Origin: Darksidea phi
Lineage: Eukaryota; Ascomycota; Dothideomycetes; Pleosporales; Lentitheciaceae
Direction: 5' to 3'
DNA length: 18,274 nt
Assembly: GCA_030770425.1 (NCBI GenBank)
Contig: JASJFT010000415.1
Span: 1-18,274, forward strand
Shown: positions 2,519-16,672 of the stretch, in pieces
Position numbering within the stretch: position 1 is the first letter of the stretch
Layout of the letters: every line of letters starts with the position of its first letter
The notes under the pieces: generated by a model
The model's database searches: none
Seen by the model: the letters and a program-made list of their open reading frames with translations, nothing else
Told to the model about the DNA's origin: nothing
Made by a program: the position numbers and the translations under genes

Positions 2519-3294
2519 ATGGCGTCCTCCCAGCCATCATCGACGGAGAGCACACGGAACGCTATCTTGGAGAACGGATTCTTCTTTGACCACGATGTAC
2601 TCTTAGGGCAGCTTATTGAGGAGATGGACAAGGACAGTGTTCCTTTCGCATCAGCTGGCGGTTTACAGTTCTGTAAAAATAGTGTCCTTGACAACCCAGT
2701 TAGTATAGACTGACTTTTTCTTTTACCTCGCTTAACGTCTCACTCTCGTAGCGCATCCGGCCTATTCTCGAGTCCTTCTTCGATTGGTTTGCTTTGGGAC
2801 TTTACAGATCCATCGGCGCCTTTCCCGGAGAGTATAGCTTCAGGAAGAGCGATCCAAAAGCAAAGGTTGATACTCTTCTAGTCCACCTGTGGAGCAAAGG
2901 ATCTAGAGCGTCCTTTTGGGGAGGTTCACATCGCCATCAGTTACCCTGCGTGAGGGGGGAAAATAATTTGTGGCGGGTTCCTCGTATTAGTTTGAAACAC
3001 CTAAACCTCAAACCCACCGAAGTTACGTTTGAGCAGGGTGGCTTGTAAGTTCTTGATCCTACATTGTAAGCATTATCTCACGGGGACCGCAGCACCATCT
3101 TAGATCCTCGAATCGCCGTCGAAGTCACGAAAGGCACCGCAACCACGTTTGCGTTCGGGACAAAGGAGGTCATCAGCACGTGGAATCCGATGAGACTACC
3201 AAAGTCACAAGATATCGAGGAAACAATCACTGGCATGGAAGGCACAAACTTTGGGATAAACGTGGCTTACGTTGAGCGAAAGGAGGGGACATAA
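2519..3294 (+). CDS. Conserved-looking fungal protein of unknown function, three exons
   Basis: Exons are inferred at 2519-2698, 2752-3044 and 3093-3294. The introns are 53 nt (GTTAGT...GTAG with CTTAAC branch) and 48 nt (GTAAGT...GCAG). Phases agree and the product is 224 aa. The N-terminus is Ser/Thr-rich; residues from about 15 read GFFFDHDVLLGQLIEEMDKD. The centre has DTLLVHLWSKGSRASFWGGSH and later LWRVPRISL, and the C-terminal part has ILDPRIAVEVTKGTATTFAFG. The blocks LVHLWSKGSR, GSHxHxLP and ILDxR look like a fungal hypothetical-protein family I have a sense of but cannot name. No signal peptide or membrane helix is evident. The frame is intact, without RIP-type stops, and the gene converges on the C2H2 gene with no gap. 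Function is unknown. Confidence 0.78.
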
Positions 3295-7497: not shown

Positions 7498-7817
7498 ATT
7501 AAGAGTTTGCTCGAAGGGACGCGAGGTTCCGGAAGGCACCCGATGGACTCGAGAGTCTACGAGGGCGTCAAGGAGGCCCTAGCGGAGAAGGGAAGTCGAC
7601 TACGCGAGGGGAATCTCTGTGCCAGCGAATAAGGATGGACGGATTTGTATACTTCCTGTGGTTTGTCGTTAGAGCGTGACGGCTAGATAAGGTAGGACGT
7701 GTTGTGCTGCTTAACAGGCCGTGAATCGTCGGAACTTGGGGACAGTTCGGGATAGGGATACTCACGATAAGCTCCCTAGTATACCTAGTTACCAAAAATA
7801 GGAGAACTGGATCGAGG
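7498..7817. other. Upstream region of the kinase pseudogene, no other gene seen
   Basis: A plus-strand open frame covering 7282-7632 is antisense to the kinase pseudogene and has no motif. Beyond 7632 I see nothing recognisable before the minisatellite. Confidence 0.45.
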
Positions 7818-7932
7818 GCAGGAGGAGTGGGTATGCAAGCGCAGGAGGAGTGGGTATGCGAGCGCAGGAGGAGTGGGTATGCGAGCGCAGGAGGAGTGGG
7901 TATGCGAGCGCAGGAGGAGTGGGTATGCGAAC
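7818..7932. repeat. 23-bp minisatellite, exactly five copies
   Basis: Five head-to-tail copies of a 23-bp unit (GCAGGAGGAGTGGGTATGCG followed by AGC) span 115 bp. The copies are nearly identical: the first has CAAGC and the last CGAAC at the end of the unit. Since 23 is not a multiple of three, every copy is read in a different frame, so the repeat is unlikely to be coding. The near identity suggests recent expansion. Confidence 0.95.
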
Positions 7933-10624: not shown

Positions 10625-11787
10625 TCATGTAAAAGATTGTAAATAGGGATGTTGAAGTGCTTCTGAAGCTGTGGGTCTCTTGCTGTGATCAACGACTAGT
10701 AAAGACTCAATAAAATCCAGTAGCTCCGGCGACACTGGGAGCCGCTGTAGTTCCTCCCGTAAAGTGCCTCCTTTGATAAGCCTCGTGCCATCATGGGGAT
10801 TTTCCATGACCGCTAATTGTTCTGCTAGCTCAAATTCCTCCTTATAGGGCTGGTAATCAACAGGTTGACCTAGCGGGCCAAGGAGACGGATGATTTTCGC
10901 GATGCACCACGCTTCTGTAAACCCTTCGATTATCTTGTCACTAGGACCAAAGAGGGGGTACGGTGATAATCGACGTGCCAACTTCCAACTTAGCTTTCGC
11001 CCAGAGAGGTAGGTGTGAGTACTAACTGTAACACCAAGTGACCATACATCAGAGGAATGTTGACACCCCAAGCCTTGCCAGACCTCAGGCGCCCGACATG
11101 GTAGGCTTTGACCACGTTGTTTTGTAGAACCCTCAGTAATCACTATAAACATGAGCGCTGTTAACTAGAGCTAAGAAGGACACTTACAATTCCCTAAATC
11201 TCCCAGCTTGGCAATTGGCGAAAGCCCATCGATGTCGGAGACGTAAATGTTGTTTACATTAACATCTAGTCATTTAGTACTAGGAGTATAAATGGGGAAC
11301 GAACAATTTACCTGTATGAACAACACTAAGCTTTTTGAAAAGTTCAAGAGCAGACAGGACCGCTTTAGATACCACTTTTAGCAACCTTGGGTCACCTTGG
11401 AATTGGTTAGCCTGGACGGATCGTAAATCTAGATCTATCCATTCAAATACTAGGCATCCTGGGTCGTATTGATCTTTATTTAACCGTACCGTATCGTGTA
11501 GGGTCCGGATGTACGGGGACGAGGCAATTTCGAGGATTCCGTAATTACAGTATTCTCGCCTTAAGGCAATTCTTTCATCGTTGGTAGTAGCAGATTTAAC
11601 TACGGCCCTTGAGTAATAGTAAGCTATTAATTCTTGTAGCACTTAAGTAGAGAGAGCTATACCATTCTCCTTGGATTAGGGGGTTAGACAGCACCCGGGC
11701 TTTGAAGACGCTGGAACCTTTTAACTGCTCCAGCAGCTCATACTTTCCTTTTCCCCCTCGAAGCACTTGTCCAATGCGCAGCGCCAT
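10625..11787 (-). CDS. Protein kinase domain protein, five exons, intact
   Basis: Exons on the minus strand are 11787-11663, 11607-11312, 11265-11188, 11142-11027 and 10981-10625, with introns of 55, 46, 45 and 45 nt. All phases agree, giving 323 aa, essentially one kinase domain. In order: a glycine-loop equivalent LKGSSVFKAR; the ATP-anchoring Lys in EWAVVKSA; a hinge with LVFEWIDLDL; the catalytic loop VVHTDVNVNNIYVS, created by splicing; LGDLGN in place of DFG; PCRAPEVW (APE); SDVWSLGVTLA; and a C-lobe ending in LLVVDHSKRPTASEALQHPY. The catalytic Asp and the metal-binding Asn and Asp are present, but the usual Lys of HRDxK is Asn. The layout, with an insert before the final helix, recalls SRPK-like CMGC kinases. 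The substrate is unknown. Unlike its surroundings it carries no disruption. Confidence 0.9.
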
Positions 11788-12299
11788 ATCTTCTAAAGAG
11801 GTGGGAGAGCGAAATGGTGCGTATGTGCGCGACGGGTCTTGGAGGGAGAAAGGAGCTCCGGCGTTGCAGGCTGATGGTGATTGTTAGCGCGCATTTTGGC
11901 GTCCGTGCTTTGCGCGTCACCACCCAAACTTGCTGCCCCCCTCGCCTCCAATTTTCTCCACCGCTGCTTCGCTCCCCTTGACCCTCGCCTTCAACGCCAC
12001 CCTCCAATTATCGGCCGCGTCTCCGTTCCTTAGGGCCACGTCACAAAGACCGTGGGAGGCAATGCCTTCGGATCGATGGATGAGAGGTTACGCAAGGACT
12101 CGTCGGAGATTGCGACTACAGAAGCCGGTCTTCCCGTCGGAAACCCAATTGAAGTCGCAAGCGACGTGTTTGGTGCTGGCCGATGATGGGCTTGAGCCTA
12201 TCTATGTGGGAAGGCGAGGAGCGACAGAAGTCTCTGGAGAGCATCTCCCGCTCGGGCATCTTTGCAACCTCAATGGCTAGTTACGGGGTAAATTCTAAA
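11788..12299 (+). pseudogene. Region upstream of the kinase with a frameshifted coding fragment
   Basis: The first 240 bp probably include the kinase promoter. From about 12046 one plus frame reads GNAFGSMDERLRKDSSEIAT, then GLPVGNPIEVASDVFGAG. A second frame from about 12175 reads LSMWEGEERQKSLESISRSG, then IFATSMASYG before a GTAAAT. The two together look like one decayed coding region with a frameshift near 12175. I cannot name the family. Confidence 0.3.
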
Positions 12300-12928: not shown

Positions 12929-13732
12929 CGGCGAGGACGTTCACGGCAAGGCGTGGCAAGGCACCATGAAGGGGAGCGCAGCGGTGGACGCAAGCGGCGG
13001 ACGTGATAATGAGAACAAGTTATCGCAAGGCACCAGGGCGCAGCACAGGGTCATGATGTTAGCCTATATAGAACTACGCGGCGACGGTCACTCCGTCAAG
13101 CGCAGACGATGACGAACTATCTTCGCTCTTGTACACTATCTTCTGCGATGCTGCAAGGGTGGCCGGAGCAGGTCGGCCATCCTCTCTACTGGCAAAAAGC
13201 GGATTACGTCATGTAAACCTGGAGGGAGCTTATATCGAATCTGCGCGCAGCCCCTATGCTGCCAAGCGGCAACAACGCTTGATGCCCTCGCTGCGGGGAG
13301 CTGCTGCAGGGCCTCAAGGGCCTTAGCTGTCCGCATCCTGGTACGTTTGGCTGCGCAGGACGGGGGGTCGTTGTGTCGTAGTCGAGTCCGCGGTTCGATA
13401 AAAAAATATCTTACTTCTTCAACAATCCAAAAGTATGCCCGATGGCGCCTCCCAACGCCTACTGTACAAGGTGTATGCCAGTGCGGGTCGACCGCTCTCC
13501 ATGTATGTGGTGGCAATCGCCACCAGCCTAGCCACTTGTTATATCTATCGAAGCTCACCGTGCTAATCTTCAAAGAAGCGAGCTGAAATTGCAATCATGG
13601 TTGCGGCTAAACCTTGATCCACGCCAGCCCCCTCCAAGTGCTTCTTAGCAGCGTGCTCGCCTGCACCCGACAGCATGGTGTCTCCAAGCAAACGACAACA
13701 GGTCCCACAAGGAAACAGGCCTCAAAGAGCAC
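12929..13732. other. GC-rich region with overlapping open frames, no identified gene
   Basis: A minus-strand frame of 152 codons (13594-13136) and plus-strand frames at 13129-13326 and 13347-13586 overlap, and none shows a domain motif. The last 90 bp (from about 13643) are open in the sirtuin frame and may hold the end of an upstream sirtuin exon. I see no RNA gene. Confidence 0.4.
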
Positions 13733-14394
13733 ATGGCAGCGTGCCTTAATCTGCAGAAAGCCCTGGCACCAGCTGACAAGCTGCAGCTGGACCGACTTTT
13801 GAAGACGCTGCGCACCAAGCAAAAGATTGTCGTTGTTGCTGGGGCTGGCATCTCAGTGTCGGCCGGTATCCCAGACTTCGGCTCATCGGTCTGCGCAAAG
13901 AGCATAAGGGTATCTCTACTGGTAAAGATTTATTTAACGCATCTGTGTACCAGGAGGATAGGCAGACGGCCTTATTCCACGATATGATGACAAAATTATC
14001 ACGACAAATAAAGAAGGCCAAACCAACCGCCTTCCATTATCTTCTTGCAAACCTGGCCAAGGAAGATCGGCTCGTGCGCCTATATACCCAAAATATCGAC
14101 GGCATTGATGTCGCACTAAAGCCTCTGGAGACTACGACTCCATTTCCCAAGAAAGGACCCTGGCCAAAGACTGTGCAACTGCACCGAAGTCTAGACAACA
14201 TGGTGTGCTATAAATGCTATGAAATATTTCCGTTTAACGTAGAAATATTCAGTGGCACAGAGCCGCCAGCATGTCCAACTTGCCTAACGAACGACAACTT
14301 GCGTGAGGTAGCCAGTAAACGGAGACGCGGCGTTGGAAGGCTTCGCCCACGTATAGTCCTATATAATGAGAATGGTCCTAACGAGGAAGCGATT
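13733..14394 (+). pseudogene. N-terminal half of an Hst3/Hst4-like sirtuin, cut at a repeat array
   Basis: Sirtuins are NAD+-dependent protein deacylases; the Hst3/Hst4 group acts on histone H3 in fungal nuclei. From the first in-frame ATG this half shows KIVVVAGAGISVSAGIPDF (NAD+-binding loop), then a frameshift at about 13880-13890. The adjacent frame continues GLRKEHKGISTGKDLFNASV, LVRLYTQNIDGID, VQLHRSL (catalytic His; usual LHGSL), a zinc site CYKC...CPTC, and GVGRLRPRIVLYNENGPNEE followed by AIG. The sirtuin then stops abruptly where a 15-bp repeat begins. The next block of the family (DLR..PD.VIVVGTSLKVPG) is found 0.65 kb away on the opposite strand. As it stands it cannot make a complete enzyme: it lacks the last NAD+-binding strands and has a frameshift. 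Confidence 0.9.
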
Positions 14395-14600
14395 GGGCTG
14401 GTGTGCTGCGGGCTGGTGTGCTGCGGGCTGGTGTGCTGCGGGCTGGTGTGCTGCGGGCTGGTGTGCTGCGGTGGTGTGCTGCGGTGGTGTGCTGCGGTGG
14501 TGTGCTGCGGTGTGGTGTGCTGCGGTGTGGTGTGCTGCGGTGTGGTGTGGCTGGTGTGCTGCGGGCTGGTGTGGCTGGTGTGCTGCGGGCTGGTGTGCTG
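14395..14600 (+). repeat. Tandem repeat array A (unit GGGCTGGTGTGCTGC, 15 bp) inside the sirtuin gene
   Basis: Five near-perfect 15-bp units are followed by three 13-bp variants (GGTGGTGTGCTGC), three GGTGTGGTGTGCTGC units and mixed units with GTGTGGCTG. In the sirtuin frame it reads repeated Leu-Val-Cys-Cys-Gly. Three 13-bp units total 39 bp, so the frame is kept across the array. It is inverted relative to array B at 15051-15176, and the pair can form a long hairpin. Confidence 0.95.
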
Positions 14601-15050
14601 CGCGCTGACCTCGCGTCGCAGACCATGCCAAGCCGGAAATTCTTGGCTTTCTATATAGGTACTAGCGCTAGCACAGACCCCCAACAGCGACCCCGCATAG
14701 CTACTTCCGCCAACACTTCCTTCGTCTTCGTCCTCGTCTCCCTCGTCTTCACCATTGTCGCTGGCACTCGGCATTTTGTTGGCGACCTCCTTGCGAAGGT
14801 CATTCCATACGTCCAATTCAGCGCGTCGGGCAACTTCGTCACAAGCGCCTAGAACTACGAGATCCAAAAGCGGATGATCTTTGCGCGCAGGCTCCGCGGT
14901 GTTGATCCAAATAGTTACCCCACCACGGCGAGCCCGGACCATCGCGCACATTTTCCGAACAAGTTGTTGGGCTCCAGGAACCTTTAAACTTGTGCCGACA
15001 ACGATAACAGCATCAGGCCCAGTGCGCAGATCGGCAGCAACGCATGATCC
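14601..15050 (-). pseudogene. C-terminal half of the same sirtuin, in inverted orientation
   Basis: On the minus strand from 15050 the frame reads GSCVAADLRTGPDAVIVVGTS, then LKVPGAQQLVRKMCAMV, GGVTIWIN and LLDLVVLGACDEVARRAEL. This is the part of a sirtuin that follows the zinc module and closes the Rossmann fold (GTSL and the IN strand bind NAD+). An acidic tail with GEDEGDEDEDEGS and then FPAWHGLRREVSA follows before the frame runs into array A. Joining the end of the N-half (NEEAIG) to SCVAADLR gives normal family spacing with nothing missing, which is why I see the two halves as one gene separated by inversion and repeat growth. There is no start codon of its own other than in repeat-derived sequence. 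Confidence 0.9.
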
Positions 15051-15176
15051 GCAGCACACCAGCCCGCGGCACACCAGTCCGCAGCAGACCAGCCCGCAGC
15101 ACACCAGCCCGCGGCACACCAGTCCGCAGCGCACCAGCCCGCAGCGCACCAGCCCGCGGCACACCAGCCCACAGCG
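15051..15176 (-). repeat. Tandem repeat array B, inverted relative to array A
   Basis: About eight 15-bp units (CAGCACACCAGCCCG on +, with CGGCACACCAGTCCG and CAGCGCACC variants) are the reverse complement of the array A unit. On the plus strand it is open as repeated Gln-His-Thr-Ser-Pro and runs in frame into the JmjC gene. On the minus strand it is open as Leu-Val-Cys-Cys-Gly into the sirtuin C-half. Confidence 0.93.
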
Positions 15177-15192
15177 CCGTCCTCTCTCAGCC

Positions 15193-16672
15193 ATGCCCAC
15201 CGACCTGCCATCTACTATCCGTAGCAAGAATAGGGAGAAAGAAGCCAGCGTCACTTCCCACAAAGTATGTCCACGATGCCACACAACCAGGCGATTGGAC
15301 GCATTTCAAGCAAACTCTCTTCGCTGTAAAGAGTGCCGCCATAGCGACAAAGGTCGGCAAAAGGTTCGCGCCCGAAGAACGCCCGCTACAGAACGTCTAC
15401 CAGACGACATCGAACTCAACACCGGATCTGCAGAACTTTCGGCTCTTACGACGACCTATCCAAGCCCCTCAAGCCCTCCCTCGAAATCTTTACTCACGAA
15501 GCACTACCATATTAGCGCGGCAGATATAGAGGCGCTTCGGTGCGCAGATGCCCAGACTCTTAGACAATTACTCCGTCCTGAGGATGACTGCGTCCATGAC
15601 GTTTTCACCTCGTTTGTTAAAGCACTGGAGTCTGGACGGGTACAACTATGGGGCGGTGGCGCGGATAAAATATCCTGGCCTGGAAAAGACCTCCCTCAGC
15701 TTCTCCGCAAGTGGGATTGTGGCTTACCGAAAGACCTTGATCGGCTTTGCATGGAGAATGAGCTTATCGAGGTGTATCGCCAATCTGGATTTGCGAAGCC
15801 GACAGTCCTACAGGATGGAAAGATCTTTAGCGTTACTAAATCTTTGTACGGGAACGACCCGAAAGAGGTCTGTTCGGCCTTTAACGTACCCGTCTATGAC
15901 GAAGAGCCCTTGACGTTGACTCCACCTCAATATATTGTTCGCAACCAGATAATGTTTACGCCAGATACCGTCCTCTATCAAAAAGCGAATGTCACTCCTA
16001 AGTATACGTTCGTAGATACTCATATCGGTAAGTATTACTCTTTTGTAGAATGTTATTGTATTAACGCTGATAGATAATGGCCTCAACGTACTAAGCGTAT
16101 GCGACGACCGCTGCGTAAAATTGTGGGTAATTCACCCACCAACTCCTGCCAACATGGTCGCATTCTCTCTTACCTACGGATGCATGAATGTCTTTAGCCA
16201 CTTTGAGCCCGAAGCAAGTCAAGGGCTGTACTTCTTTACTTTCCCTAATGATGCCATCTATCTACCACCAGGCACTATCCATACGGTCTATACAATTGCA
16301 AGCGGATGTCTAACTGGCATTGCATGGACGAGCGATACTGGACTTCTCGCGAGCGCCCGAATGTTCGAACAAGACTACCACCAGGGTAACAGTATAACGG
16401 CATCCTTTACCTGTCTGATCCAGAGCCTGTGGTGCGCCGTTCAAAAGCGGGAGAACTTTCCAGACATAAAACGTACATTGGGGATTATCTGCCCCATTGT
16501 CATGAAGTTGGTGTGGAGGGAGAAATTGTGGGAGCCAGGAATAGATGAATTACGGAGCACTATACAGAAAGTGGAACAAGAGCTAGAAAGGCATGGTCTT
16601 GAGAAGCCGGTCTGCCCCGAATGTGGTGCTGGAATCCTTACCCATGTAAGAGTTGATCCGCCGATACAGTAA
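15193..16672 (+). CDS. Zn-finger plus JmjC-domain protein, two exons
   Basis: JmjC proteins are Fe(II)/2-oxoglutarate oxygenases, often lysine demethylases. Exons are 15193-16027 and 16074-16672, with a 46-nt intron (GTAAGT donor, TTAAC branch, GATAG acceptor) and agreeing phases; the product is 477 aa. Residues 20-50 hold KVCPRCHTTRRLDAF and LRCKECR, a CxxC...CxxC zinc module. The splice junction builds VDTHIDNGLNVLSVCDDRCV, with the HxD iron ligands (His277, Asp279). KLWVIHPPTPANM follows, and the third ligand sits in YLPPGTIHTVYT (His348). A coiled segment and CPECGAG lie near the C-terminus. The ATG has an acceptable context (GCCATGCCC), but the frame is also open upstream through array B. 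A coding-like frame continues just past the stop (see the nuclease entry). The substrate is unknown; histone lysine is an inference from the family. Confidence 0.85.

Follow-up and report, generated by a model that had tools for sequence, protein, structure and literature searches.

A degraded sirtuin gene copy of the fungus Darksidea phi, whose two halves lie on opposite strands, quite probably arose by a single inversion for which the DNA broke once within the gene and once within one downstream minisatellite, which was thereby split into two inverted arrays. The copy is located on contig C352 of an assembly of 51.35 Mb and 477 contigs, and the whole contig (18,274 bp, referred to as the window) was analysed. 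In the likeliest history, the inverted arrays are a product of the inversion and not its cause, and the copy is probably a dead gene and not a genetic switch. A literature search showed no published account of the locus among the titles listed. The features of the locus are listed in Table 1.

Table 1. Features of the split sirtuin copy and its surroundings in the window
Feature	Position	Strand	Basis
Degraded SIR2-family sirtuin, N-terminal half	about 13700-14396	+	Protein match to C434 from 13700; Pfam SIR2
Gene-side inversion breakpoint, EAIG/SCV, 2-bp microhomology GG	14396-14397	.	Best of 1,368 cut pairs; three copies continuous
Array A, 15-bp minisatellite (GCTGGTGTGCTGCGG) including variants of 13 bp and additional pieces of 9 bp	14397-14607	+	Tandem Repeats Finder: 14395-14607, 15.4 copies
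Sirtuin C-terminal half (SCVAADLR...GTSLKVPG...WIN) with acidic tail, inverted	14608-15048	-	Match to C434; alignment of 240 homologues
Start of dispersed repeat, 65 bp, in sirtuin tail	14651-14715	-	Genome matches; alignment with flanks; absent in C465
Array-side inversion breakpoint, where the C-half meets array B	15048-15049	.	Cut-pair scan
Array B, 15-bp minisatellite of array A in opposite orientation, 45-bp higher-order unit	15049-15177	+	Inverted-arm comparison
Flank beyond array B, common with C465 beside its single array	15178-15225	+	88% over 43 bp, C465:2291-2333
Apparently intact two-exon ORF, family unassigned by Pfam, about 15 bp past array B	15193-16672	+	Intron about 16028-16073 by eye

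Both halves belong to the SIR2 family (PF02146) by descent. Positions 13777 to 14391 of the N-half matched the Pfam SIR2 profile with 48.8 bits (cut-off 24 bits), and the N-half piece is 68% identical on the protein level to the sirtuin encoded on contig C434 over its residues 38 to 205. The C-half by itself matched no Pfam family and was assigned by its alignment with the C434 sirtuin (64% identity over 89 residues). The preliminary description of the locus, which had placed the N-half on the forward and the C-half on the reverse strand, is confirmed by these matches. Functional SIR2 proteins carry the motifs GAGIS, GIPDFR and TQNxDG, an HG catalytic motif and two zinc-binding CxxC pairs in one reading frame. 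Retained in the window copy are TQNIDG, the histidine, which we take to be the catalytic one, and the four zinc cysteines, as the preliminary description had noted. The single reading frame assumed there for the N-half did not hold, since the frame changes in the GIPDF region (about 13876 to 13895, with a net shortfall of 16 nt compared to C434), and GAGIS is present in the other frame. The LHRSL motif, also listed previously, is indeed encoded but is not typical of the family: its histidine is followed by arginine, where all 240 aligned homologues (two sets of 120, the best of 1,963 and of 324, respectively) have glycine. The window copy is thus homologous to the SIR2-family fungal sirtuins, some of which are named Hst4, but differs from them in its broken frame, the change of HG to HR and the location of its halves on opposite strands; with the frame broken at GIPDF and the HG motif altered, it does not qualify as a functional member of PF02146.

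A further lesion is found in the tail of the C-half, which contains the initial part of a dispersed repeat (TGTTGG...CTATATAG) occurring at no fewer than 20 genomic sites, the one in the window included. Among the 19 other aligned copies, 18 extend beyond the end of the window copy with common sequence, and L071 diverges earlier. By eye, the repeat is solo-LTR-like. An intron common to several genes was considered for this stretch and rejected on the grounds of these 18 longer copies.

A tree was computed from 49 of the 240 proteins together with the window copy and C434 (51 rows). It placed the window copy beside P0002 with a support of 99/86, but this place is unsure because of the long branch of the window row (0.88 compared to a median of 0.059 in the same tree). 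The dN/dS ratio of the window copy was 0.13 for the N-half (167 codons) and 0.24 for the C-half (90 codons) against C434, and 0.33 (54 codons) against the fragment on C445; since synonymous differences to C434 amount to 56 to 65% of the sites, which is near saturation, these ratios are no more than suggestive of past constraint. Such values suggest that the copy may have been under constraint through much of its history, which was perhaps relaxed later.

Nine SIR2 matches, distributed across six contigs, were detected genome-wide, so that the window copy is not the sole sirtuin of the fungus. C434 harbors an open sirtuin frame of 667 codons, stop to stop, in which the junction of the two halves is intact. 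Its product shows 62 to 64% identity to proteins of Massarina, Byssothecium and Periconia, with four better-scoring matches at 73 to 76%; the genera named place the fungus in Pleosporales. C434 likely carries the working sirtuin copy. The other copies used for comparison are fragments. On C445, the junction is intact and the C-half is interrupted by two TAG and one TAA stop codons. The fragment on C252 (L046, positions 2004 to 2185) is identical to the N side of the window copy at 66 of 68 positions in two aligned blocks, runs 24 bp further through the window's break and then passes into the minisatellite in the orientation of array A; beyond this array, a comparison with the window gave no further match. 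All three copies (C434, C445 and C252) cross the EAIG/SCV site with no array located there.

The copy on C465 is organized differently. Its C-half is unflipped, i.e. it points the same way as the downstream gene, and is followed by the tail, a single array (two complete units plus part of another), and the downstream flank known from the window. The sirtuin N-half was looked for on C465 and none was found; therefore, no one copy displays the entire ancestral order. The C-half of C465 contains three TAG and three TAA stops. Its differences to the window are mostly of the G-to-A and C-to-T type (40 of 60 in the C-half and, further downstream, 70 of 105), a bias of the kind that repeat-induced point mutation would produce; the corresponding share between C445 and the window is 27 of 60.

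The two arrays are 441 bp apart, and the inverted arms that they form extend over up to 78 nt with 94% identity and a longest exact match of 25 bp. Tandem Repeats Finder, with which all tandem arrays were called, reported array B at 15049 to 15175 with 8.5 copies, or at 15049 to 15177 with a period of 45 bp. The preliminary description had located both breakpoints at the edges of oppositely oriented 15-bp arrays and the break in the protein between consecutive residues of the family. Both observations hold, as the arrays directly adjoin the gene halves and no residue is found between G and S of EAIG/SCV in any of the 240 homologues. To locate the breakpoints, 1,368 pairs of cuts were scanned and scored for the gene junction, compared to C434, C445 and C252, and for the phase of the 15-bp array. 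The pair 14396/15048 gave the best gene junction (32, 35 and 38 of 40 positions for the three copies, respectively, 105 of 120 taken together) and an array phase of 28/30, which was reached by only eight of all pairs; a chance coincidence of both is therefore unlikely. When the ends are rejoined at these cuts, the gene becomes continuous again and the repeats fall into the phase of one array; the joint has a microhomology of 2 bp, and no sequence is lost. Reciprocal junctions, neither gain nor loss of sequence and little homology are the marks of a two-break (cut-and-paste) inversion.

The array of C465 links the two arrays of the window. Its tail edge matches that of array A, its far edge and flank match those of array B, and the two GCGC-variant units that it contains recur at the far end of array B, so that A and B are best read as parts of one array. 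The single array of C465, together with a cut pair restoring both gene and phase, makes one inversion the likeliest course of events. Of the earlier proposal, the inversion thus stands; homologous recombination between pre-existing inverted arrays is not its simplest explanation, given the single array of C465, the array-free copies and the 2-bp joint. A one-time inactivating inversion, named in the preliminary description as a competing view, fits best.

According to this history, the ancestral order would have been N-half, C-half, tail, one array and downstream gene. Two double-strand breaks, one inside the gene and one inside the 15-bp array, would have released a middle piece (14397 to 15048, 652 bp including array A), which would have been put back in reverse by end joining at a microhomology of about 2 bp, not by homologous recombination. 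Array A would represent the portion of the ancestral array that was inverted and array B the portion that kept its orientation, and both parts may later have changed their copy number independently. The copy might have been non-functional before the inversion or have become so afterwards; the C434 gene would do the sirtuin work.

Several observations are not in line with a single inversion. Besides the missing N-half on C465, the copy on C252 shows a second junction of gene and array, 24 bp deeper in the gene and with unchanged orientation, and the dN/dS values of 0.13 to 0.33 suggest lasting constraint. Furthermore, the breaks in C352, C252 and C465 all fall into a stretch of about 30 bp (the C-half of C465 starts within about 15 bp), and one random event does not account for three such breaks. 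A shared ancestry of the breaks is a possible reason for the cluster. The best similarity of the array to the gene near the break was 14/24, compared to maxima of 14 to 16 in 93 and of 17 to 18 in six of 100 shuffled controls; being at chance level, it makes homology an unlikely guide of the break. Neither a derivation of the array from the gene's own sequence nor a break guided by gene-array homology is therefore supported. A DNA hairpin causing the break is likewise unsupported, with folding z values of +0.70, -1.17 and -1.45 in three copies, and so neither array similarity nor DNA folding explains the cluster.

Matches to two units of the array (at most three mismatches in 30) were found on four contigs, on three of them beside pieces of the window's sirtuin family, which is in favor of the single inversion. 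A weaker array-like match (74%) on C346 counts among the observations against it. At the array site on C29 (L047, positions 2656 to 2745), no adjoining sirtuin piece was found. About 550 bp past this array, positions 3292 to 3944 of C29 match positions 873 to 1582 of the window in two pieces with 68 to 71% identity, a second segment common to both contigs.

Alternatively, a copy of the array might first have been inserted at the EAIG/SCV site, after which homologous recombination between the inverted arrays flipped the C-half once. The inverted arms present today, up to 78 nt at 94%, and the array joined to a sirtuin gene near the same spot on C252 are in favor of this order of events. It is nevertheless unlikely, as C434, C445 and C252 cross the site with no array there, the exact match between the arms does not exceed 25 bp, and the exact phase requires the additional insertion of whole units, for which the chance is estimated at about 1 in 15 if the insertion were arbitrary.

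Repeat arrays are places where assemblers fail, and the window is an entire small contig of 18,274 bp with repeats, so an assembly or template-switch artefact at the arrays was considered as well. Such an origin appears improbable, since the junctions are reciprocal and exact to the base and show neither loss nor duplication; in a fold-back chimera, sequence would be present twice, and a search with the C-half found it once on C352.

The preliminary description had also proposed a reversible switch, in which recombination between the arrays flips the segment and thereby switches the sirtuin between an on and an off state. The inverted arms exist, and a gene-truncating inversion system is known from a fungus: the inversion at the MAT locus of Sclerotinia sclerotiorum truncates a gene, comprises a 3.6-kb segment between identical 250-bp inverted repeats and segregates 1:1 in its orientations (PMC3574095). 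The window resembles it in that a fungal gene is partly inverted and the inverted segment is bordered by inverted repeats, but differs from it in its arms of at most 78 nt at 94%, the distance of 441 bp between the arrays, the single orientation found and the otherwise damaged gene. Neither long near-identical repeats nor an intact gene in one orientation was present in the window. Flipping the segment would yield no intact protein because of the upstream frame change, the replaced invariant glycine and the repeat fragment in the tail, and the arms are short and imperfect compared to the identical 250-bp repeats of Sclerotinia (PMC3574095). An unflipped, near-identical C-half was not found in the assembly, where a search with the C-half gave one copy, that on C352. 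In view of these other lesions, the exact arm match limited to 25 bp and the one orientation assembled, the proposal is not supported, and a switch seems very improbable.

Equally remote is a head-to-head arrangement of halves from two different genes, to which the opposite strands and the fragmentary copies on C445, C252 and C465 might point: the halves join at adjacent residues of one family in all 240 homologues and at adjacent bases in three other copies, which contradicts two genes and bears out the earlier reading as two halves of one.

Two further systems were compared with the window. Budding-yeast flip/flop mating-type switching is based on an inversion between inverted repeats flanking mating-type genes (PMC6692504). 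DNA inversion and inverted repeats are shared with the window; the repeats drive the switch there, whereas those in the window are located within and next to a gene copy that is broken. Inversions in Drosophila are described as originating by cut-and-paste, by unequal recombination between repeats or from staggered breaks (PMC5080602). A gene-disrupting cut-and-paste inversion of this kind fits the window. In contrast to staggered breaks, to which duplications are tied in that study, the window breakpoints show no duplication, and unlike in the two-break inversions described there, one window break is located in a minisatellite (PMC5080602).

Downstream of array B, the similarity to C465 continues (78% DNA identity between window positions 15225 to 15748 and C465:2501-3015). 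The two-exon ORF located here matched no Pfam family over the cut-off and gave no useful match to solved structures (best E value 0.6); a JmjC fold, which had been an impression by eye, was supported neither by the Pfam scan nor by the solved structures. Elsewhere in the window, positions 1781 to 2147 comprise a repeated element with copies of 83 to 91% identity on more than 30 contigs among the matches listed. A protein kinase homologue in pieces is found on the reverse strand at 10628 to 11840 (Pkinase, 42.5 bits for 10628 to 11164), with copies of 72% DNA identity on C168 and C193. Two further tandem arrays have other units (767 to 821, 15 bp; 7813 to 7930, 23 bp).

The split sirtuin copy illustrates that a pair of inverted repeats resembling a switch can be the footprint of a single inversion breaking inside a tandem array, and that one related copy with a single array goes far in separating a switch from a one-off inversion. 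The three breaks within about 30 bp, if real, would provide a small case for studying the joining of minisatellites and genes. As to an inversion by a site-specific recombinase, a Pfam scan of ten ORFs, out of 71 listed for the window, showed no recombinase domain. It is conceivable, though hardly to be expected, that the arrays made by the inversion armed the locus, so that the segment now flips back and forth and cultures contain both orientations of the sirtuin-array fusion. If true, this would be a repeat-driven switch born of one chance break.
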